Of a DNA stretch of 64,000 nucleotides, positions 25,495-56,352 are shown piece by piece. Every line of letters begins with the position of its first letter. Within the stretch, counting starts at the first letter, position 1. Source of the stretch: Planotetraspora phitsanulokensis (GTDB lineage: Bacteria > Actinomycetota > Actinomycetes > Streptosporangiales > Streptosporangiaceae); the NCBI RefSeq assembly GCF_016863295.1, contig NZ_BOOP01000009.1, forward strand, positions 62,001-126,000, read 5' to 3'. Under the pieces are notes generated by a model that was not told the origin of the DNA, did not search any database, and saw only the letters and a list, made by a program, of their open reading frames with translations. A program made the position numbers and the translations under genes.

Positions 25495-26277
25495 CTAGCT
25501 CATCGACGCGACCTGCGTCCGCGCGGGGCGGTTGCGCCACAGCCAGACGACGTCGCGGCCAAAGGACCACACCAGGGACGCCAGCGCCGCTCCCACCGCG
25601 ACCGCCACGACCGGGTACGGCAACACGCCCGAGGCGGCCACGACGAGCACGATCCCCTGCGTCGCCGCCACGACCTTCCGGGCGAAGCTCGGCGGCAACG
25701 CCCCCCGCAGCCACGGCATCGTCCAGCCGGCCACGACGAAGGCGTACCGCATGGCGCCGATGACCAGGACCCACGCACCCAGGGAGCCCGCGACGTGGAC
25801 GCTGAGCACCAGGATCAGGAAGGCGTCGACCTCCATGTCGAAGCGCGCGCCCAGTTTGGAGACCGTGCCGGTGCGCCTGGCGACCTGACCGTCGACCGCG
25901 TCCAGGATCAGGGCCACCGTCGCGAGTGTGACGAGAATCACCAGCGGCAGGCCCCGGGCCGGGTGGTCCGTCATCACCAGGACCGCCACGAGCGCCGTCA
26001 CACCCCCGACGAGCAGGGCGCGAGCCAGCGTGACATGATCGGCCGGGCCCAGTGAGCGGGTTCCCGACCGCCGAGCGGCGACGGCGAGGAACGCCCACAG
26101 GCCGGCCGTGTAGACGACCCCGGCCGCCACACTCGCCGAGCTCAGGCCCACGAGGGCGTTCAGCAGGCACAGCAGGCCCATCTGGACGCCCGCTCCAGCG
26201 GCCTGTTCCCAGTGGATTGAACCCGCGCCGAACTGTGCACGTGTTGTTTGAGTAGTTCGTGCGGACGGTGCCGTCAT
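25495..26277 (-). CDS. CDP-alcohol phosphatidyltransferase
   Basis: 260-residue integral membrane enzyme. The diagnostic DxxDGxxAR-x8-GxxxDxxxD motif is intact (DAVDGQVARRTG, then LGARFDMEVD, residues about 125-150), with all four metal-binding Asp residues. About six TM helices. It transfers a phospho-alcohol moiety from a CDP-linked donor onto a second alcohol, as in phospholipid head-group or polyol-phosphate lipid synthesis. Divergent from the dehydrogenase/pterin-synthase-like operon (65 bp between starts), which suggests shared control. The acceptor is unknown. Confidence 0.9.
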   Translation of the reverse strand: MTAPSARTTQTTRAQFGAGSIHWEQAAGAGVQMGLLCLLNALVGLSSASVAAGVVYTAGLWAFLAVAARRSGTRSLGPADHVTLARALLVGGVTALVAVLVMTDHPARGLPLVILVTLATVALILDAVDGQVARRTGTVSKLGARFDMEVDAFLILVLSVHVAGSLGAWVLVIGAMRYAFVVAGWTMPWLRGALPPSFARKVVAATQGIVLVVAASGVLPYPVVAVAVGAALASLVWSFGRDVVWLWRNRPARTQVASMS

Positions 26278-26341
26278 TCGGAACCCCTGTACCAATTAGT
26301 ACCCATATGCACCATCTATCCACCTGTTGAGGAGATGCTCG

Positions 26342-27328
26342 GTGATACGTACGGCACGTGCCTTCTGGTTCACGTCTCCCGGGGAGGGCGAGATCAGACC
26401 GGTCGCCCTGCCGGAGCCCGGCCCAGGCGAGGTGCAGGTCCGTACGCTCTGCTCGGGGGTGAGCCGCGGCACCGAGACCCTGGTCTGGCGCGGCGGGGTG
26501 CCGGAGAACCAGTACGACGTGATGAGGGCGCCGTTCCAGGAGGGCGACTTCCCCTGGCCCGTGAAGTACGGGTACCTCAACGTCGGGGTCGTGGAGCACG
26601 GGCCGCCTGATCTGCTCGGCCGCCCGGTCTTCTGCCTCTACCCCCACCAGACCCGCTACGTGGTCCCCGCCGGCGCGGTCGTCCCCGTGCCGGACGGCGT
26701 GCCCCCGGAGCGGGCCGTGCTCGCCGGGACCGTCGAGACCGCGGTGAACGCCCTGTGGGACGCGGCGCCGCTGGTCGGCGACCGGATCGCCGTCGTCGGG
26801 GCCGGAATGGTCGGCTGCGCCGTGGCGGGTGTGCTCGCCGGCTTCCCCGGTGTCAGGGTCCAACTGGTCGACGTGAACCCTGCGCGGGCAGGCGTCGCCG
26901 AGGCGCTCGGCGTCGGCTTCGCGTCGCCCGGGGAGGCCGAGGAGGGTTGCGACCTCGTGATCCACGCCAGCGCCACCGAGGCGGGGCTGGCGCGTTCACT
27001 CGAGTTGCTCGCGCCCGAGGGAACGGTCATCGAGCTCAGCTGGTACGGCGACCGGAGGGTCGGCCTGCCCCTGGGCGAGTTCTTCCACTCCCGCCGTCTG
27101 ACCGTCCGCAGCAGCCAGGTGGGCATGGTGTCCCCGGCCCGGCGCGCTCGCCGGAGCTTTTCCGACCGGCTGTCGCTGGCGCTGACGCTGCTCGCCGATC
27201 CCGTGTTCGACGCGCTGATCACCGGTGAGAGCGGGTTCGAGGACCTGCCCAAGGCGATGGCCCGTCTCGCCGGCGACGATCTTTCCGCTCTGTGTCACCG
27301 AATCGTCTACGACCCCGCCGAGTCCTGA
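26342..27328 (+). CDS. MDR-family (zinc-binding-type) dehydrogenase
   Basis: 328-residue medium-chain dehydrogenase/reductase. The N-terminal GroES-like domain ([19 protein letters not shown]) lacks the four-Cys structural zinc loop; the Rossmann domain contains [17 protein letters not shown]. Likely oxidises or reduces a sugar or alcohol with NAD(P). The GTG at 26342 is chosen for the GAGGAG seven bases upstream. First gene of five tightly packed genes; it ends 11 bp before the pterin-synthase-like gene, so both probably act on one pathway. Confidence 0.87.
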
Positions 27329-27339
27329 AAGGCTCCACC

Positions 27340-27738
27340 TTGTTCAGCATCACCGTTCGCGACCACGTCATGATCGCCCACAGTTTCCGCGGCGAGGTCT
27401 TCGGCCCCGCGCAGCGCCTGCACGGGGCGACGTTCGTGGTCGACGCGACGTTCCGCCGCGCGGAGCTCGACGCCGACAACATCGTCGTCGACATCGGGCT
27501 GGCCACGCAGGAGCTCGGCGGCGTGCTCGCCGAGCTCAACTATCGCAACCTCGACGACGAGCCCGCCTTCGCCGGGATCAACACCTCGACCGAGTACCTG
27601 GCCAAGGTCATCGCCGACCGGCTCGCCGACCGGGTCCACGCGGGCGCGCTCGGCGAGGGGGCCCGCGGGCTCTCCGGGATCGCGGTCGCCCTGCACGAGT
27701 CGCACGTCGCGTGGGCGAGTTACGAGCGCACCCTGTGA
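27340..27738 (+). CDS. 6-pyruvoyltetrahydropterin synthase/QueD-like protein, altered active site
   Basis: 132-residue T-fold protein related to 6-pyruvoyltetrahydropterin and 6-carboxytetrahydropterin synthases. His in MIAHSF, RLHGATF, the DIG segment ([11 protein letters not shown]), [15 protein letters not shown] and the C-terminal [10 protein letters not shown] are recognisable. The usual C-x(3)-HGH motif reads QRLHGA: the catalytic Cys and the third zinc His are missing. TTG start at 27340 with GAAAGG seven bases upstream. The downstream GT4 start overlaps its stop (GTGA). Likely acts on a dihydroneopterin-triphosphate-like or other substrate; the true reaction is unknown. Confidence 0.8.
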
Positions 27739-28823
27739 GCACGGCCGGCGTGTTCGCCGTCCTGCCCGGTGACGTCGACGACGCGGCCGCGCCGAGCGGC
27801 GGCAACGTCTACGACCGCCGCGTGTGCGGGGGACTCGTGGCCGCCGGCCTACCGGTCCACGAGATCGCCGTGCCGGGCGCCTGGCCGAGGCCGGACGGCG
27901 ACGCCCGGGCCGCGCTCGCCCGATCACTCGCCGAGGTGCCCGACGACGCGGTCGTCCTCCTCGACGGGCTCGTCGCGTGCGGGGTGCCCGATGTCGTCGT
28001 CCCCCAGGCCCGGCGGCTGCGCCTGGCGGTCCTGGTCCACCTGCCACTGGGCGACGAGATCGGGCCGGAGCCCGGGGTGGCGGCCGACCTGGACGCGCGC
28101 GAGCGGGCGACCCTTCAGGCCGCGGGAGCCGTCGTGGCGACCAGTCCGTGGACGGCGAACCGGCTGGTCGGCCACCACGGGCTGGCGGGGGAGCGGGTCC
28201 ACGTGGTCTCCCCCGGCGCCGACCGCGCGCCGGCGGCGTCCGGCACCGACGGCGCCTCCCGGCTGCTCTGCGTCGGCGCGGTGACCCCGACCAAGGGCCA
28301 CGACCTGCTCGTGGAGGCCCTCGTGGCCGTCCCGGAACCGCCGTGGCACTGCGAGATCGTCGGGCCGCTGGGCCGGGATCCCGCGCATGCGGAGCGGCTG
28401 CGGCGGCTGATCGAGCGGCTCGGCCTCGGCGACCGGGTGCGGCTGGCCGGCCCCCTGCCGCCGGAGCGGCTGGCCGTGGAGTACGCCCGCGCCGACCTGG
28501 TGGTGCTCCCGTCCCGCTCCGAGACGTACGGCATGGTCGTGACCGAGGCGCTGGCGCGCGGGATTCCGGTGCTGGCCACGGCCGTGGGCGGCGTCCCGGA
28601 GACCCTCGGGCAGGCTTCCGATGGCGGCGTGCCGGGAATCCTTGTATCTCCGGAGGACCCCGCGGCCATCGCGGCGGGGCTTCGCCGCTGGTTCGGCGAT
28701 CCCGGCCTGCGGCGTCGGCTCCGGCTCTCGGCACTCGATCGCCGTGACCGGCTGGAACCGTGGCAGGAGACGGCACGGGGCATGGGCGCCGTGCTGGAAC
28801 GACTACGAGGAGAGACGCGATGA
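27735..28823 (+). CDS. GT4-family glycosyltransferase
   Basis: 362-residue GT-B glycosyltransferase. The C-terminal donor domain has the family features [34 protein letters not shown] and the EX7E-type segment [19 protein letters not shown]. The N-terminal half ([17 protein letters not shown]) binds the acceptor. It moves a sugar from a nucleotide donor onto an unknown acceptor; in this operon that may be the pterin-like compound or a lipid. The GTG at 27735 overlaps the upstream stop and its own stop overlaps the methyltransferase start. Confidence 0.9.
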
Positions 28824-29680
28824 GCACGCCGCCGACCGGCGACGAGCCGGTCCGAGTCACCCCGGGCTGGCTGGCCCTGCGCGAGAGCGCGGACGCCGCC
28901 GCCAGGGCGCCGGAGCTGCTCGATCCGCTGCGGGACTACCTGGCGGAGACCGCACCGGAGCGGCTGGTCATCCAGGACCTCGGCTGCGGCACCGGGTCGC
29001 AGGCCCGATGGCTCGCCGGACGGCTGCGCGGGCCGCAGCACTGGATCCTCCGTGATCGCGACCCCGATCTGCTCGTCCACGCCGGTGAGAGCCTGCCCCC
29101 CTCGGCCTCCGACGGGGGCCCGGTCACGGCCGAGACGCGACAGGGCGACCTCACCGCCCTCCGCGCGGCGGATTTCAGCGGAACGTCGCTGGTGACCGCG
29201 TCCGCGCTGCTCGACCTGCTCACCTTCGACGAGGTCGACGATCTGGCCGCGGCCTGTGTGGAGGCGGGGTGTCCGGCCCTGCTCACCCTGTCCGTCGCGG
29301 GGAGGGCCGACCTGACCCCCGCGGAGCCGCTCGACGCCGAGGTGACCGGGGCCTTCAACGCCCACCAGCGGCGCACGACCGGCAGCCGCCGCCTGCTCGG
29401 CCCCGACGCCCCCGACGCCGCCACCAAGGCCTTCGAGCATCGCGGGGCGGTGGTGCGCAGCCGTCCCAGCCCCTGGCGGCTCGGCGCGGACTCCGCCGCG
29501 CTGACCGAGGAGTGGCTGCGCGGCTGGGTCGCCGCCGCCTGCGAGCAGCGGCCCGACCTCACCCCGCAGGCGGAGCCCTACCTGCGGCGACGGCTCCAGG
29601 CGTGTGAGGCGGGCGAACTGGAGGTCGTCCTCCATCACACCGACCTGCTCGTGCTCCCCCCGCGGAAGGCCGCCGCGTGA
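28820..29680 (+). CDS. SAM-dependent methyltransferase
   Basis: 286-residue class I methyltransferase: motif I is IQDLGCGTGSQARWL, motif II-like RDRDPDLL supplies the acidic residue, and TASALLDLLTFDEV follows. ATG at 28820 (ATGA overlap). It uses S-adenosylmethionine on an unidentified substrate, presumably an intermediate made by the adjacent glycosyltransferase and pterin-synthase-like protein. Confidence 0.87.
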   Translation: MSTPPTGDEPVRVTPGWLALRESADAAARAPELLDPLRDYLAETAPERLVIQDLGCGTGSQARWLAGRLRGPQHWILRDRDPDLLVHAGESLPPSASDGGPVTAETRQGDLTALRAADFSGTSLVTASALLDLLTFDEVDDLAAACVEAGCPALLTLSVAGRADLTPAEPLDAEVTGAFNAHQRRTTGSRRLLGPDAPDAATKAFEHRGAVVRSRPSPWRLGADSAALTEEWLRGWVAAACEQRPDLTPQAEPYLRRRLQACEAGELEVVLHHTDLLVLPPRKAAA

Positions 29681-30663
29681 CAGTGATGCGCAGGCTCTGG
29701 CCCTGGCTGCGGACGCTCATCGGAGCGGGCATCCTGGGGATCCTCGTGTGGCGGCTCGGCACGGGTGCCTTCGTTGACGGCTTCCGCGTGATCGACGGCT
29801 GGTCGGCGGTCGCGGCCCTCGTGATCGGCCTGGCGACCACCGTGGTCAGCGCCTGGCGCTGGTGCCTCGTGGCGCGCCGTCTCGACCTGCGGCTGTCGCT
29901 GCCGACGGCCGTCGCGGACTGTTACCGCGCGCTGTTCCTCAACGTGCTGCTGCCCGCGGGCGTGCTCGGCGACGTCCACCGGGCGGTCAGCCACGGCCGC
30001 ACGTCCGGGAACGTCGGCCGGGGCGTCCGCGCCGTCGTGTTCGAACGCCTCGCCGGCCAGGTGGTCCTCGTCGTCGTCGGGGTGACGGTGCTGCTGACCC
30101 AGCCCGCGCTGATCACGGCCGTGGCCCACGGCCTCGCTCCGGGCGACGCACTGGTGGCCGGGACGCTGGTCCTGCTGGCCGTCCTCCTCGCCGTCGGCGT
30201 GTGGACCGTCGCCCGGCGCGGCGGTGCCTGGCACCGCGCCCTGGCGGCGGGATGGGCGGAGGGGCGCGCCGCCCTGCTCGCCCGCGACGTCTGGCCGCGG
30301 GTGGCGCTGCTGTCGGCCGGGGCGGTGGCGGGACACCTCCTCCTCTTCCTGGTCGCCGCCCGCGCCGCGGGATCGCACGCGACGGTCCTGCAGTTGCTGC
30401 CGCCGCTGGTCCTGACGCTCCTCGCGATGGGCCTCCCTGTGAACATCGGGGGGTGGGGCCCGAGGGAGGCCGTCTCCACTCTTGCGTTCGGCGTCACGGG
30501 TCTTGGAGCCGCTCAGGGGCTCACCGCGGCGGTGGTGTACGGCGTGCTCACGTTCGTCTCGACCCTTCCCGGCGCCGTGGTGCTGTTCCTGCGCCGAGGC
30601 GGCCGGGCCCGCGGCCCCGGCGAGCCGTGGCCTTCCGGTACGGTCCGCCACGCCGTCCGGTGA
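29677..30663 (+). CDS. Flippase-like membrane protein (UPF0104/LPG synthase TM region)
   Basis: 328 residues with about seven to eight TM helices, matching the lysylphosphatidylglycerol-synthase TM-region family (AWRWCLVARRLDLRLSL, ALFLNVLLPAGVLGDVHRA, ERLAGQVVLVVVGV, LPVNIGGWGPREA). Members move or modify lipid-linked molecules. The GTG at 29677 overlaps the methyltransferase stop, so it ends the five-gene coupled operon. With the divergent CDP-alcohol transferase it gives the locus a membrane side. Confidence 0.88.
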   Translation: MTVMRRLWPWLRTLIGAGILGILVWRLGTGAFVDGFRVIDGWSAVAALVIGLATTVVSAWRWCLVARRLDLRLSLPTAVADCYRALFLNVLLPAGVLGDVHRAVSHGRTSGNVGRGVRAVVFERLAGQVVLVVVGVTVLLTQPALITAVAHGLAPGDALVAGTLVLLAVLLAVGVWTVARRGGAWHRALAAGWAEGRAALLARDVWPRVALLSAGAVAGHLLLFLVAARAAGSHATVLQLLPPLVLTLLAMGLPVNIGGWGPREAVSTLAFGVTGLGAAQGLTAAVVYGVLTFVSTLPGAVVLFLRRGGRARGPGEPWPSGTVRHAVR

Positions 30664-30703: not shown

Positions 30704-32191
30704 TCAGCGGGCGATCGGGGTGGGCGGCGGGCCGCACCACTCCGCCAGTGCCGTGCGGATCAGGTCGGCGGACGACTCGGAGCCCGCGGCGGCCGCCCAG
30801 GCGATGTAGCCGTCAGGCCGGACGAGCACGAGCGTGCGGGTGGCGTCGCCCGCTGTGACGACCCGCACGCGGCCCTCCCACCCTGCCGCCGCCTGCGCGG
30901 GGACCCGCGAGCCCGGGGGCACGACCAGCAGCCAGCACCTGCAGCGCAACGCCTGGTACACGCTCTTCGGCCCGGGACCGGCCAGTGGAAGGTCCGGCGC
31001 CCGCCGGCCCACGAGCGGATGGGCGCCCGCGGCGGCCGGGTAGGCGAGGCCGATCCCCGAGATCGTCTCCGCCATGCGGCGGGCGAAGGCCGGGACGCCC
31101 GTCGCCGTCCGGAGGAGCACCCGCCAGACCGCACGCAGCGTCCGGGGACGGGCCATCGCACTGCGCAGGAGCCTGCCGCTGGTGCGCAGGGCGATCTCGC
31201 CGGCCAGGTGCCGCTCGCTGCTGTAGGTGTCGAGCAACCACGCCGGCGCTCCGTCCCTGACCACGGCGGCGAGCTTCCAGCCGAGGTTGGCCGCGTCCTG
31301 CAGGCCCGTGTTCATCCCGAGACCGCCCGCCGGGGAGTGCACGTGCGCGGCGTCGCCGGCGAGGAAGACCCGTCCGACGCGGTAGGCGGGCACCTGCCGC
31401 TCGTCACAGCTGAACCGCGATATCCAGCGGGGATCGTGCATGCCGAAGTCGCTGCCGAGGACGCGCCGCGTGATGTCGCGGATCTCACCGAGCTCGACCG
31501 GCGCCGTGTCCGCCCGACGCCGGCGTCTGCTCCACACGATCACGCGGTACCAGCCGTCGCCGAAGGGCAGCACGAAGGCGAACCCGTCCTTGACCGCGTC
31601 CGCCGTCAGCACGTTCGGGGGCGGGTCGGTCATCTGCACGTCGCACAGCAGGAGCGAGCGCGCCACGGACAGGCCGGGGAAGGGCAGGCCGAGCGAGTGC
31701 CGCACCGCGCTCCGCGCGCCGTCGGCGCCGACCACGTAGCGTGCCCGCCACGTGCAGTCCCGGCCGTCGTGTGTACGAACGTCGAGATCCACTCCGTCGG
31801 CGTCCTGGCGGAGCCCGGTCACCTCCGCGCCCGGGACGAACTCGACACCCATCGTCCGTGCCCGCTTCGTGAGCAGCCGCTCGGTCATGAACTGCGGGAC
31901 GGCCAGCAGATACGGAAAGCGGGTGGCCAGGCAGGACAGGTCCAGCACCCCCTGCCCGAACACCCTCAGCGTGTCGATCGGAAGGCCCACCGCCACGAAG
32001 TCGTCCGCGAGGTCGCGGGCGTCCAGTTGCTCGAGGGTCCGCGCGTGGACGCCGGCGGCGCGGCTGAGGTTCGACTCGCCGTGTCGGCGTTCGAGGACGA
32101 CGCAGGACAGACCGGCGGCCGCGAGATCACCCGCGACGAGCAGCCCCGTGGGACCCGCCCCGACGACCACCACGTCCGTTACGGCATCCAT
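30704..32191 (-). CDS. FAD-dependent monooxygenase (aromatic hydroxylase type)
   Basis: 495-residue class A flavoprotein hydroxylase. Dinucleotide fold VVVVGAGPTGLLVAGDLA, the DG motif VVGADGARSAVR and the FAD-ribityl GD motif RVFLAGDAAHVHSPAGGLG are complete; the C-terminal thioredoxin-like extension is also present (DLPLAGPGPKS...). It hydroxylates an aromatic or polyketide ring using NAD(P)H and O2; relatives inactivate rifamycins or tetracyclines or act in secondary metabolism, but the substrate is unknown. AAAGGGA ribosome site. No clustered partner gene. Confidence 0.9.
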   Translation of the reverse strand: MDAVTDVVVVGAGPTGLLVAGDLAAAGLSCVVLERRHGESNLSRAAGVHARTLEQLDARDLADDFVAVGLPIDTLRVFGQGVLDLSCLATRFPYLLAVPQFMTERLLTKRARTMGVEFVPGAEVTGLRQDADGVDLDVRTHDGRDCTWRARYVVGADGARSAVRHSLGLPFPGLSVARSLLLCDVQMTDPPPNVLTADAVKDGFAFVLPFGDGWYRVIVWSRRRRRADTAPVELGEIRDITRRVLGSDFGMHDPRWISRFSCDERQVPAYRVGRVFLAGDAAHVHSPAGGLGMNTGLQDAANLGWKLAAVVRDGAPAWLLDTYSSERHLAGEIALRTSGRLLRSAMARPRTLRAVWRVLLRTATGVPAFARRMAETISGIGLAYPAAAGAHPLVGRRAPDLPLAGPGPKSVYQALRCRCWLLVVPPGSRVPAQAAAGWEGRVRVVTAGDATRTLVLVRPDGYIAWAAAAGSESSADLIRTALAEWCGPPPTPIAR

Positions 32192-32273: not shown

Positions 32274-33422
32274 TCAGCGTGCTGCGGCGAGGTCGGCGAA
32301 CATGCGCTCCCACAACGGCATGACCTTCTGCGGCGAGTATTCAAGGGCCGTCGCGGCGGCCGCTGCGCCCATCCGGACCCGGAGCTCCCGGTCGGCGATG
32401 AGCCGGTTCACCCCGGCCGCCAGGGCGTCGACGTCCCGGGCGGGGACGAGCAGGCCGTCGTGATCGTGCGTGAGAACGTCGCCGGGGCCGGTCGGGCAGT
32501 CGAAGGCGACGATCGGCAACGCGTGGGCCATCGACTCGATCATCACCATGGGCAGCCCCTCGAACCGGGAGCTGAGCACGTAGATCGAGGCCTTGGCCAG
32601 CTCCTGGTCGAGCCGGTCGCTGCGGCCCATGAGCGTGACGTTGCCGGCCAGGCCGTGCTCGGCGATCAGCTTGGCGAGGTCGGCCTTCTTCGGGCCGGTG
32701 CCGAAGATCCGCAGATTCCACTCCGGATTGCGTGCCACGACCTGCTTGAACGCCGGGATGAGCAGGTCGAAGCCCTTCTGCCCGACGAGCCTGCCCGCGG
32801 CGACCACGAGCGGGTTCTCCTGCCGGGTGGGCGCACGGCCGACAGTGGCGACGGCGTTCGGCACCCATTCGACCCGGGTGCCGGGCAGCAGCTTGCGGTA
32901 GTCCTCGCGGTCGCTCGCCGTCAGCGTCACGACCGCGTCGAGCCGGCCGTAGTAGCGGGCGATGTCGCTGCGCACGGTCTCCGGGTAGGTGTCCAGGTTC
33001 ATGTGATCCTGGGCGACGCGGACGACGCTCTCGGGGGTGCGGCGGGCCGAGATGAGGTTCAGGGCCGGCCGGGTGGTCACCAGGATCCCGTCCGTCAGCG
33101 ACGACACGTAGTCGATGACCGCCCGCTCCACCCGCTCGGTGAACCAGTCGGCCTTGAACTCCCCGACCGGGACGATCCTGCCGCGCATCATGCGCCAGGC
33201 CCGGCGCCCCACCGAGTCGGGCCGCACCCCGCCCCGCTGGTCGGCCAGGGCGGTGACGCGGACGCGGGAATCGATCTCGAACTGCGGCTCGTCGCGCCGC
33301 CGTACCGTGCTGATCACCTCGACGTCGTGCCCGGCGGCGGCCATGGCGTTGGCCTGGTTGAGGACCGTGCGGATGGTGCCCCCCATGCCGTAGGCGTGGA
33401 GGAGCATGTAACGGATCTTCAT
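32274..33422 (-). CDS. GT4-family glycosyltransferase, paired with a sulfotransferase
   Basis: 382 residues. N-terminal Rossmann domain MLLHAYGMGGTIRTVLNQANAM; donor domain with VVAAGRLVGQKGFDLLIPAF, NVTLMGRSDRLD and EX7E-type SSRFEGLPMVMIESMAHALP. Cytoplasmic glycosyltransferase, probably for a surface glycan or glycolipid. It follows the sulfotransferase gene by 19 bp on the same strand, so the pair may make a sulfated glycoconjugate. Confidence 0.9.
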   Translation of the reverse strand: MKIRYMLLHAYGMGGTIRTVLNQANAMAAAGHDVEVISTVRRRDEPQFEIDSRVRVTALADQRGGVRPDSVGRRAWRMMRGRIVPVGEFKADWFTERVERAVIDYVSSLTDGILVTTRPALNLISARRTPESVVRVAQDHMNLDTYPETVRSDIARYYGRLDAVVTLTASDREDYRKLLPGTRVEWVPNAVATVGRAPTRQENPLVVAAGRLVGQKGFDLLIPAFKQVVARNPEWNLRIFGTGPKKADLAKLIAEHGLAGNVTLMGRSDRLDQELAKASIYVLSSRFEGLPMVMIESMAHALPIVAFDCPTGPGDVLTHDHDGLLVPARDVDALAAGVNRLIADRELRVRMGAAAAATALEYSPQKVMPLWERMFADLAAAR

Positions 33423-33441
33423 CGCACCGTCCCGGGAAGGC

Positions 33442-34320
33442 TCATGTCCGCTCCGCCGTACGAGGGAGGTAGTCCCAGCTCACGCTCATCGCCCGCAGCG
33501 ATTCCGGGATCTCGTCCTCCGAGGGGAGGTCACGGCCCGGCTGCACGGTTCCGGTGCTGATCTTGTCCTTCCAGTCGCCGAGTCCCTTCTCCTTGACGGA
33601 GAGCTCGCCGTAGGTGAGCATGCCGTCTTCCCACGGGACGTCGAGGAATTCGCAGATCCGGCGGGTCTCCTTCTCCGGTTCCGCGGTCAGGTCCTCGTAT
33701 CTGACGACCAGGCCGGGAAGCGCCTTGCGCGCCCGCTCGACCGCCTTCATGTAACGCAGGGCGTCCAGCGCGGCCTCCTCGGGAGTGCGCTTGACCGGGT
33801 CGGCTTCGTGCCACGAGGTCGCGATGGACGCCGGATGACGCAGGAGGAAGATGAACCGGGCGTCGGGCCAGCAGGCCCTGATCCGCTTGTAGGCGAACGC
33901 GTTGGCCGGAGTCTTGTCCACCATGAACCGCTTGCCGCTCTTGACCAACTCGCGGTGCAGCACCCGATCCCAGAGAAGATGCTCCAGATCGGCCCTGTTG
34001 TGGCCGAGCGCTTCCATCGCCGATTCCGCCAGCGGGGTCCCGAAGTTCACGAAGAGCCGCCGCACGTGAAGCTCATGGGGAGCGTGCAACATCGAGTGGG
34101 CGTTCATCATCGCCCTCAGCAGGGTGGAACCCGAGCGAACCGGCGAGAGGATGAAGATCGGCGCGGTCAGGAGCCGGTCGATCCGCGGGTCCTCCGGCGG
34201 CCGCACCAGGTCCTCCGCTGCGGCCTCCTCCGCTGGAGTGGAACCCGTTTTCCCTACTCGATTTAGCTGGAATCCCGCGTACTTGATGAAGGCGTTATTG
34301 ACCTTCCGCTGCCAGGTCAT
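33442..34320 (-). CDS. PAPS-dependent sulfotransferase
   Basis: 292 residues of the sulfotransferase family. The 5'-phosphosulfate loop is ILSPVRSGSTLLRAMM (P-loop-like) and the 3'-phosphate segment is FIFLLRHPASIATSWHEA; the C-terminal LTAEPEKETRRICEFLDVPW is typical. It transfers sulfate from PAPS to a hydroxyl of a carbohydrate or lipid. Divergent promoter space 34321-34550 is AT-rich; I see no gene in it. Confidence 0.88.
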   Translation of the reverse strand: MTWQRKVNNAFIKYAGFQLNRVGKTGSTPAEEAAAEDLVRPPEDPRIDRLLTAPIFILSPVRSGSTLLRAMMNAHSMLHAPHELHVRRLFVNFGTPLAESAMEALGHNRADLEHLLWDRVLHRELVKSGKRFMVDKTPANAFAYKRIRACWPDARFIFLLRHPASIATSWHEADPVKRTPEEAALDALRYMKAVERARKALPGLVVRYEDLTAEPEKETRRICEFLDVPWEDGMLTYGELSVKEKGLGDWKDKISTGTVQPGRDLPSEDEIPESLRAMSVSWDYLPRTAERT

Positions 34321-54626: not shown

Positions 54627-55384
54627 TGTGCCGTCACGTGGCCTACCTGGGCGACCCCGTGTCCCTGCGCGAGGTGCTGATCGATCCGCCGTTCGGGCTG
54701 CACCGGCAGGCCTGGGCGCCGCGGCGGCAGCGGTACGGCACGGTCAACGCCGACGGGTTCGGCGCCGGCTGGTACGCCGAGGGCGACCCGGTGCCCGCCC
54801 GGTACCGTCAGGCGGTTCCGATGTGGGCCGACGACTCCTTCGCCGACGTGGCGCGGGTCACCCGCACCCGGGCGCTGCTCGCCGCCGTCCGCTCCGCGAC
54901 CGAGGGCACCGCCCCGGACGCCTCCGCGGCCTGCCCGTTCCGGGACGGCCCCTACCTGTTCAGCCACAACGGCGTCGTGGCGGGCTGGCCGGGCTCGGCG
55001 GCCCGGCTGGCCGGGCTGCTGCCCGCAGCGCTGCTCCTCGACCTGCCGGCCCGCACGGACTCCGCGCTCGTGTGGGCGCTGGTCAGGCACCGGCTGGCCG
55101 GAGGGGCGACCATGGCCGGCGCGCTCGCCCGCACCGTCCGTGACGTGGCCGCGTACGCGGACGGCCGGCTGAACCTGCTGATCACCGACGGCGAGGCGAT
55201 CGCCGCGACGGCCTACGGCGACACCCTCTCCTACCGGGTGGACGGCCGGGGGGTCGTGGTGGCCTCGGAGCCGTCCGACGACGACCCGGGCTGGGTCGAC
55301 GTCCCGAATGCGAGCCTGCTCGTCGCCCGCGGCGGCGAGGTGTCGGTCTCCCCCATCGAAGCCGCGGCCACGGAGGAAGCATGA
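54626..55384 (+). CDS. egtC: EgtC glutamine amidotransferase-like hydrolase
   Basis: 252 residues of the class II (Ntn) amidotransferase fold; Cys2 after Met removal is the nucleophile (MCRHVAYLGDP). NADGFGAGWYAEG, HNGVVAGWPG and LNLLITDGEAIAATAYG are conserved. It removes the gamma-glutamyl group from the EgtB product. The ATG overlaps the egtB stop by one base. Confidence 0.95.
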   Translation: MCRHVAYLGDPVSLREVLIDPPFGLHRQAWAPRRQRYGTVNADGFGAGWYAEGDPVPARYRQAVPMWADDSFADVARVTRTRALLAAVRSATEGTAPDASAACPFRDGPYLFSHNGVVAGWPGSAARLAGLLPAALLLDLPARTDSALVWALVRHRLAGGATMAGALARTVRDVAAYADGRLNLLITDGEAIAATAYGDTLSYRVDGRGVVVASEPSDDDPGWVDVPNASLLVARGGEVSVSPIEAAATEEA

Positions 55385-56352
55385 CCACGCTGACCATCGA
55401 CAACCACCTGTCCGCCGGCTACCTCGACGCGGCGCTGCGCGCCGACGTGCTCGACGGCCTGACCTCCGCACCCAAGCGGCTGCGGCCCGCGTGGTTCTAC
55501 GACGCCCGCGGCAGCGAGCTGTTCGAGGAGATCACCCGGTTGCCCGAGTACTACCCGACGCGCGCCGAACGGGAGATCCTCGTGGCCCACGCGGGCGACA
55601 TCGCCGCGTTCGCGGGTGCGCAGACGCTCGTCGAGCTCGGCTCGGGGTCGTCGGAGAAGACCCGGCTGCTGCTCGGGGCGATGCGTTCCGCGGGCACGCT
55701 GAGCAGATACGTGCCGGTGGACGTGAGCGAGAGCGCGCTGATGAGCGCCGCGCACGCGCTGCGGGCCGACTACCCCGAGCTCGCCGTGCACGCGGTCATC
55801 GCCGACTTCGGCGCGCACCTCAGCGAGCTTCCCCGTGCGGGCCGCCGGATGGTGGCCTTCCTCGGCAGCACGATCGGCAATCTCGTGCCCGACGAGCGGG
55901 CGGCGTTCCTGCTCGACCTGTACGGCACGCTGTCGCCGGGTGACGCGCTCCTGCTGGGAACCGACCTGGTCAAGGACCCGGCCGTCCTCGTGGCGGCGTA
56001 CGACGACGCGGCCGGCGTGACGGCGGAGTTCAACGCCAACGTCCTGCGGGTGCTCAACCGGGAGATGGGGGCCGATTTCGACCCGGCGGCCTTCGCCCAC
56101 CGCGCGGTGTGGGACGCCGAGAACGAGTGGATGGAGATGCGGCTGCGCTCGCTGCGGCCGCAGTCCGTACGGCTTCCCGCCGTGGACCTGATCGCCGAGT
56201 TCGCCGAGGGAGAGGAGATCCGTACCGAGATCTCCGCGAAGTTCCGTCCCGAGGGGGTGCGCGCCGAACTGGCCGCGGGCGGGTTCGACCTGCGCCACTG
56301 GTGGACGGACCGGGCGGGCAGGTTCGGGCTCTCGCTGTCCTTCAGGCGCTGA
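55381..56352 (+). CDS. egtD: EgtD L-histidine N-alpha-methyltransferase
   Basis: 323 residues. SAM-binding motif LVELGSGSSEKTRLLL, YVPVDVSESAL, VAFLGSTIGNL, and FYDARGSELFEEITRLPEYYPTR, all diagnostic for EgtD. It trimethylates histidine to hercynine, the first pathway step. Last gene of egtABCD; no egtE (C-S lyase) is adjacent, as in other actinomycetes where it lies elsewhere. Confidence 0.95.
   Translation: MTTLTIDNHLSAGYLDAALRADVLDGLTSAPKRLRPAWFYDARGSELFEEITRLPEYYPTRAEREILVAHAGDIAAFAGAQTLVELGSGSSEKTRLLLGAMRSAGTLSRYVPVDVSESALMSAAHALRADYPELAVHAVIADFGAHLSELPRAGRRMVAFLGSTIGNLVPDERAAFLLDLYGTLSPGDALLLGTDLVKDPAVLVAAYDDAAGVTAEFNANVLRVLNREMGADFDPAAFAHRAVWDAENEWMEMRLRSLRPQSVRLPAVDLIAEFAEGEEIRTEISAKFRPEGVRAELAAGGFDLRHWWTDRAGRFGLSLSFRR

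Follow-up and report, generated by a model that had tools for sequence, protein, structure and literature searches.

We examined a six-gene locus at positions 25495-30663 of a 64,000-nucleotide stretch (the window) of the Planotetraspora phitsanulokensis genome (contig NZ_BOOP01000009.1). The locus probably belongs to a conserved pathway that turns guanosine triphosphate (GTP), through the opening reactions of riboflavin and not of folate synthesis, into a sugar-bearing, membrane-handled, pterin-like compound. We consider it fairly likely that these genes are the core of a dedicated pathway entered from GTP through GTP cyclohydrolase II (RibA). The product best supported by the sequences would be a pterin- or pyrimidine-like compound made from GTP, bearing sugar and methyl groups and passing through a step at the membrane. 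A preliminary description had suggested a glycosylated, membrane-linked, pterin-like product; the gene families make this product class a natural one, while the pterin ring and the product itself we infer. That the six genes form the whole pathway was not borne out, as RibA, a creatininase-family protein and a RibD_C-type reductase join them in relatives.

Conservation of the locus

All six open reading frames (ORFs) are present by frame and family checks, five on the + strand and one, for a CDP-alcohol phosphatidyltransferase (CDP-OH), divergent on the - strand. The + strand genes encode in order a medium-chain dehydrogenase (ADH), a T-fold protein, a GT4 glycosyltransferase, a class I S-adenosylmethionine-dependent methyltransferase (MT) and a flippase-like LPG_synthase_TM membrane protein (FLP). 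The ADH stop lies 11 nucleotides before the T-fold start, and the T-fold/GT4, GT4/MT and MT/FLP junctions are 4-nucleotide overlaps (GTGA, ATGA and GTGA). Frames, families and junctions thus confirm the layout first described.

The preliminary description had proposed looking for the same gene order in other actinomycetes, and we did so with the T-fold as sole bait. Our named loci, the best 80 of 402 confirmed, over-represent close relatives and Streptomyces; the set also holds Amycolatopsis, Pseudonocardia, Actinomadura, Kutzneria, Phytohabitans, Sciscionella, Streptomonospora, Actinacidiphila, Streptacidiphilus and Micromonospora. Neighbor genes were counted by profile searches within 9.5 kb of the T-fold gene. 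CDP-OH, ADH and MT were each found at 80/80 named loci, GT4 at 78/80 and FLP at 75/80. Three of the five loci lacking FLP (L014, L067 and L068) soon reach a contig edge, and in the genomes of L067 and L068 the gene turned up on a different contig (L159 and L155); L036 and L037 lack both GT4 and FLP. Of 120 genomes sampled from the window's own family, 31 have the T-fold (E 1e-20), and the 30 loci besides that of the window were all fetched. GT4 and MT occur at 30/30 of these, ADH at 29/30, and CDP-OH and FLP at 28/30 each, with some loci truncated where a contig stops. CDP-OH is divergent at 72 of the 80 named loci and co-directional at 8; in the own family it is divergent in 18 of 28 cases and co-directional in the rest. 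The six-gene unit recurs and its flanks do not. Such grouping contradicts a scattering of the homologues among relatives and strongly supports the original suggestion of one shared pathway.

Loci from a distant family of the phylum (n = 15: L154, L161-L164, L166-L168, L170, L171 and L173-L177) have T-fold proteins (32-39% identity) that retain HGH, lack the Cys and mostly have Tyr at the His position discussed below. RibD_C, ADH, T-fold and GT4 occur together in 15/15, and at L173 RibA heads the run. CDP-OH and FLP were found in none of the 15, nor at the near locus L150, and because of these absences the membrane pair looks like an add-on. The methyltransferase next to GT4 at L161 did not match the window-family MT profile, and at least 10 further genomes of this family in the sample gave no T-fold match. 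In 15/15 of the distant-family loci, a gene resembling FolB (dihydroneopterin aldolase) points away from RibD_C; it may serve folate synthesis or be part of the pathway.

Front-end genes and the RibA residue switch

RibA accompanies the T-fold gene at 67/80 named loci (one, L063, being partial) and 21/30 own-family loci, the creatininase-family protein at 65/80 and 22/30, and the RibD_C-type reductase at 17/80 and 2/30. We read the whole as three modules: a front end (RibA, creatininase, RibD_C), a core (ADH, T-fold, GT4 and usually MT), and a membrane add-on (CDP-OH and FLP). The T-fold profile matched at 133 of the fetched loci, a tally that includes near-copies, contig-end loci and three QueD loci. 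RibA and creatininase alone are present at 73 of these, all three front-end genes at 11, RibA and RibD_C at 9, RibD_C alone at 18, creatininase alone at 3 and none at 19. Within the 120 own-family genomes, T-fold is found in 31, creatininase in 30 and both in 23, against 7.75 expected (hypergeometric 3e-12, uncorrected for kinship).

The cluster creatininase matches PF02633 (217.3 bits) and scores 39.1 against a cut-off of 180 for ArfB (NF033501). Mycofactocin protein MftE was also considered as its identity and rejected, at 136.1 bits for a cut-off of 172. The RibD_C protein of L161 passes TIGR00227 (192.7 bits, cut-off 150.15) and falls under TIGR01508 (162.5, cut-off 186.45). Separately, in another lineage (L186:6722-8953), a RibD_C gene, a RibD-type deaminase-like ORF recognized by eye and a creatininase of the cluster subfamily adjoin; this trio is a possible formamidase-using riboflavin-type module.

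In the work of Spoonamore (2006) on the Streptomyces coelicolor RibA homolog SCO6655, Met120 in place of Tyr reportedly leads to release of a formamide. From this work, an altered RibA was expected beside creatininase and a Tyr-type RibA where creatininase is absent. We took 92 full-length RibAs from loci with a T-fold match. The 84 beside creatininase have 55 Met, 28 His, 1 Leu and 0 Tyr at this position, and those of Streptomyces clusters have Met at the equivalent of position 120. All 8 without creatininase have Tyr; 2 of these (L169 and L172) are near a true QueD outside the cluster, leaving 6 cluster RibAs. Creatininase stands without a full-length RibA at three loci, namely L129 and L075 at contig ends and L018, which is not at one. 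Over 20 chosen genomes, a close creatininase (64-100% identity) occurs in 8, with a Met or His RibA read in 7 of these, the exception being the genome of L018; the other 12 have a creatininase match of at most 43% or lack one, and all of their RibAs among the 30 loci listed are of the Tyr type. The residue switch fits two routes to one diaminopyrimidine.

In a quick RibA tree (82 rows, near-copies removed) the non-Tyr proteins form one group with one change (SH-aLRT 90). RibA and creatininase thus became paired once and have stayed so, with exchanges among Met, His and Leu inside the group.

In the window genome we found a single T-fold gene of this Pfam family, three RibAs, all Tyr-type, and one creatininase that is only 28% identical. 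Two of the RibAs (contigs C40 and C29) adjoin RibD_C genes; in the tree they fall together with the cluster RibAs of L072, L153 and L152 to one side of a starred branch, where the tool warns of long branches. At L122, of the same genus, a RibD_C gene directly follows FLP. Judging from these genes, the window genome would most likely use the Tyr-type route, with its genes unlinked to the locus.

Several observations weigh against a pathway organized in this way. No RibA, RibD_C or creatininase lies beside the window's six genes; RibD_C is present at only 17/80 named loci; and 19 of the T-fold loci have no front-end gene at all. Seven own-family genomes have the creatininase without a T-fold. 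One of these (L179) is a fragment of the cluster at the edge of a contig; the other six, of the 30 own-family genomes having creatininase, are without any cluster gene, and their stand-alone proteins (L178 and L180-L184) are 57-64% identical to the creatininase of L041. Across the phylum sample the subfamily was found in 7/296 genomes, two of them without T-fold and five with it. At L018 (Sciscionella marina) creatininase stands by the cluster and no Met or His RibA was found in the genome. Finally, since the pairing arose once on the tree, it is not repeated independent evidence, and a test of RibA residue against creatininase by independent pairs had just one pair available. Some short RibA-like matches occur in the L018 genome.

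The T-fold protein

The T-fold protein (27340-27738, +; PF01242, 80.2 bits) is the orthologue of S. coelicolor SCO6650 (84% identity, 111/132), whose structure (PDB 3d7j) is entered as 'uncharacterized'. Ala24, Ala30 and Tyr68 are invariant in 82/82 T-fold sequences and replace what we take to be, respectively, the Cys, the third zinc His and the catalytic His of the family; Ala30 yields HGA where QueD and PTPS have HGH. His9, His14, His28 and Glu120 are likewise invariant in the 82 sequences. A further alignment used an approximate E. coli QueD sequence; Cys and Asp-His were seen directly in three fetched homologs (L165, L169 and L172).

The motif FGPAQ, found in the window and in 108 of 113 near sequences, is printed as the signature of subfamily PTPS-IV in an excerpt of PMC5445326, and places the protein there. 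The gene neighbors given for the subfamily are also found in relatives, PF00925 at 67/80 and PF01872 at 17/80 named loci, though not beside the window copy. The QueD/PTPS-I motif C(3-5)HGH occurs in 0/113 near sequences, all 113 having HGAT. The PTPS-II (CxxxxxHGH) and PTPS-III (ExxHGH) motifs, as defined in excerpts of PMC5041015, are likewise absent, with HGA rather than HGH in 113/113. The window protein reaches neither the NCBIfam QueD model TIGR03367 (33.3 bits, cut-off 89.25) nor the 6PTHBS cut-off. With motif and cut-off both failing, a QueD role in queuosine synthesis was rejected.

Other enzymes of the locus

The CDP-OH gene (25495-26295, -; PF01066, 43.2 bits) was called from a TTG start, and the ATG at 26277 is likelier. 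Its product belongs to PF01066 and has in full what we take to be the motif of CDP-alcohol phosphatidyltransferases, DxxDGxxAR(x8)GxxxDxxxD. An AlphaFold model from the single sequence had pLDDT 53 and was not used.

ADH (26342-27328, +) scores 25.4 bits for ADH_zinc_N, under the cut-off of 31.8; its best NCBIfam model is BchC, far under cut-off, and its nearest PDB matches are threonine and polyol dehydrogenases. GYL or GYA stands at the site of GHE, presumably the motif of the zinc enzymes at this position. Because the 19 sequences compared share no invariant Cys, ADH is probably zinc-free. GT4 (27735-28823, +; PF00534, 118.6 bits) finds MshA as best NCBIfam model (105.9 bits, cut-off 462.5), and its best PDB match is 6kih, followed by 3c4q/3c48 and 7qsg, named D-inositol 3-phosphate glycosyltransferase.

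MT (28820-29680, +) scores 25.8 bits for Methyltransf_25, under the cut-off of 27. Its AlphaFold model (pLDDT 93) is confidently predicted to have a class I fold, with Foldseek matches to generic class I enzymes that give no substrate hint. FLP (29677-30663, +; PF03706, 101.7 bits, cut-off 33.4) falls by this match in a lipid flippase family, with a putative transport role.

Proposed steps

In the proposed pathway, RibA, whose gene is present in relatives, would open GTP to 2,5-diamino-6-ribosylamino-pyrimidinone 5'-phosphate, directly if of the Tyr type. A Met, His or Leu RibA would give a formamide intermediate, from which the creatininase-family protein would then remove the formyl group. 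Where present, the RibD_C-type reductase would reduce the ribosyl chain. The zinc-less ADH and the T-fold with its altered active site may then remodel the chain and the ring to give a pterin-like heterocycle, which GT4 and MT would decorate. As an actinomycete add-on, the CDP-OH enzyme could attach a lipid or second alcohol and FLP could handle the product at the membrane. For the window genome, other contigs would supply the RibA and RibD_C steps, through the two Tyr-type RibAs each beside a RibD_C.

A more specific version, which we regard as distinctly unlikely, is a split replacement of the ring building of GTP cyclohydrolase I, with a lipid-linked pterin drawn from the riboflavin branch. 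RibA, with or without the deformylase, would make the diaminopyrimidine, RibD_C would reduce C1' of the ribose and ADH would oxidize C2', giving the 2'-keto chain that otherwise arises by Amadori rearrangement in GTP cyclohydrolase I. The T-fold with its altered metal site would close the ring to a dihydroneopterin-phosphate-like pterin, which would be glycosylated, methylated and, in Actinomycetia, joined to phospholipid and moved across the membrane. FolE is present in 20/20 chosen genomes; a split route is therefore not their only pterin source, and replacement of GTP cyclohydrolase I by the cluster for folate synthesis was rejected.

FolE matches fall in two to three pieces across one long frame at G216:C73:1711-4233 (864 aa), G259:C230:24946-26448 (580 aa) and G026:C15:25660-27141 (552 aa), a pattern that inteins or similar in-frame inserts would give.

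Alternative readings

RibA and RibD_C are riboflavin-type enzymes, and the cluster might accordingly make a flavin or lumazine product, such as a modified or glycosylated ribityl-lumazine or a riboflavin shunt, with the T-fold condensing or holding ribitylaminopyrimidine. We hold this to be rather unlikely: 73 of the 133 T-fold loci have RibA and creatininase without RibD_C, the characterized T-fold members in the excerpted text of PMC5041015 handle pterins, and no riboflavin or lumazine synthase homolog was noticed in the neighbor clusters, in which no search was aimed at them. The T-fold might instead act like PTPS or QueD on dihydroneopterin triphosphate from GTP cyclohydrolase I, the substrate that the preliminary description had put forward. 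It does score above the PF01242 cut-off and retain Glu120 and two zinc His, and FolE was found in every genome chosen. This substrate is unlikely, and finds no support here, because Ala and Tyr occupy the sites of the catalytic Cys and His and because the neighbors offer a GTP cyclohydrolase II route; adding the loss of the third zinc His in all 82 sequences and the scores under the QueD and 6PTHBS cut-offs, we give a reaction of the PTPS/QueD kind very little credence.

The Pfam families of GT4, CDP-OH and FLP would also suit an envelope glycolipid cluster in which the T-fold has a side or regulatory role. CDP-OH and FLP are missing from 19 of 21 far loci and from L150, and 15 of those 19 retain RibD_C, ADH, T-fold and GT4 together, so that we find this highly improbable. 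A role in F420 synthesis, for which the sole support is an unpublished remark in an excerpt of PMC5041015 linking PTPS-IV to F420, was rejected as scarcely credible from the distribution of CofH and T-fold. CofH is above cut-off in 147/296 phylum genomes and a T-fold match (1e-10) occurs in only 28/296, and genome G008 has a T-fold (56%) yet just a weak CofH match (5.2e-7).

Genes flanking the locus

We also considered whether the window's flanks belong to the pathway. Across 81 loci, flanking genes gdpd, reg, mono and sulfo were matched at 0 and akr at 1, while gt_b had 7 matches that all fell in the GT4 gene. All six flanking genes are retained only in the same-genus loci L121 and L123; L122 retains mono alone, and other loci have weak matches to akr, mono or gt_b. 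Retained only within the genus apart from such scattered weak matches, the flanks were rejected as pathway genes.

At 30704-32191 (-) is a flavin adenine dinucleotide (FAD) monooxygenase of the aromatic hydroxylase type (353.8 of 800 for the rifampin monooxygenase model), found in the same genus only. A second glycosyltransferase and, by eye, a sulfotransferase-like ORF lie at 32274-34320 (-) and are retained in L121 and L123. An ORF at 55381-56352 (+) resembles, by eye, the ergothioneine methyltransferase EgtD.

Comparison with known systems

If correct, the proposed GTP cyclohydrolase II-fed pathway would assign a role to PTPS-IV, a branch of a much-misannotated family (561 sequences in a 2017 survey, with one structure and no assigned reaction), and would explain why some actinomycetes retain a GTP cyclohydrolase II whose catalytic site is altered. 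The pathway hints at an undescribed, widespread actinomycete metabolite, possibly membrane-bound. Our search of the open-access literature found nothing on SCO6650 or the combined gene set, and SCO6655 only in a metabolic model.

The closest likeness is to PTPS-IV within COG0720, in excerpts of PMC5041015 and PMC5445326, through FGPAQ and the PF00925 and PF01872 neighbors, printed for a cluster of 561 sequences. The excerpt of PMC5445326 reads PF00925 as FolE2 or GTP cyclohydrolase I and gives no reaction; Pfam names this family GTP cyclohydrolase II. Creatininase is mentioned nowhere in that paper, nor does the excerpt describe the GT4, MT, CDP-OH and flippase core or the RibA residue switch.

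Two-protein opening of GTP by way of a formamide, followed by deformylation, is known from archaeal GTP cyclohydrolase III with ArfB and from bacterial BrbF, as given in an excerpt of PMC9478397. In the same excerpt a creatininase-family enzyme of S. meliloti and B. abortus (BrbF) deformylates this formamide; BrbF was annotated as a creatininase, as is the cluster protein. The systems differ in that the first enzyme here is a GTP cyclohydrolase II homolog and in that the cluster pathway looks unlike plain riboflavin synthesis.

The Met of the Streptomyces cluster RibAs is that of the formamide-releasing GTP cyclohydrolase II SCO6655, relatives of which lie in SCO6650-type clusters. To our knowledge the purpose of the SCO6655 formamide is unexplained. 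Pterin glycosides of cyanobacteria and Chlorobium start from tetrahydrobiopterin, and we know of no CDP-OH/flippase module for pterin glycosides. What they have in common with the compound proposed here, according to an excerpt of PMC5683033, is the transfer of a sugar to a pterin.

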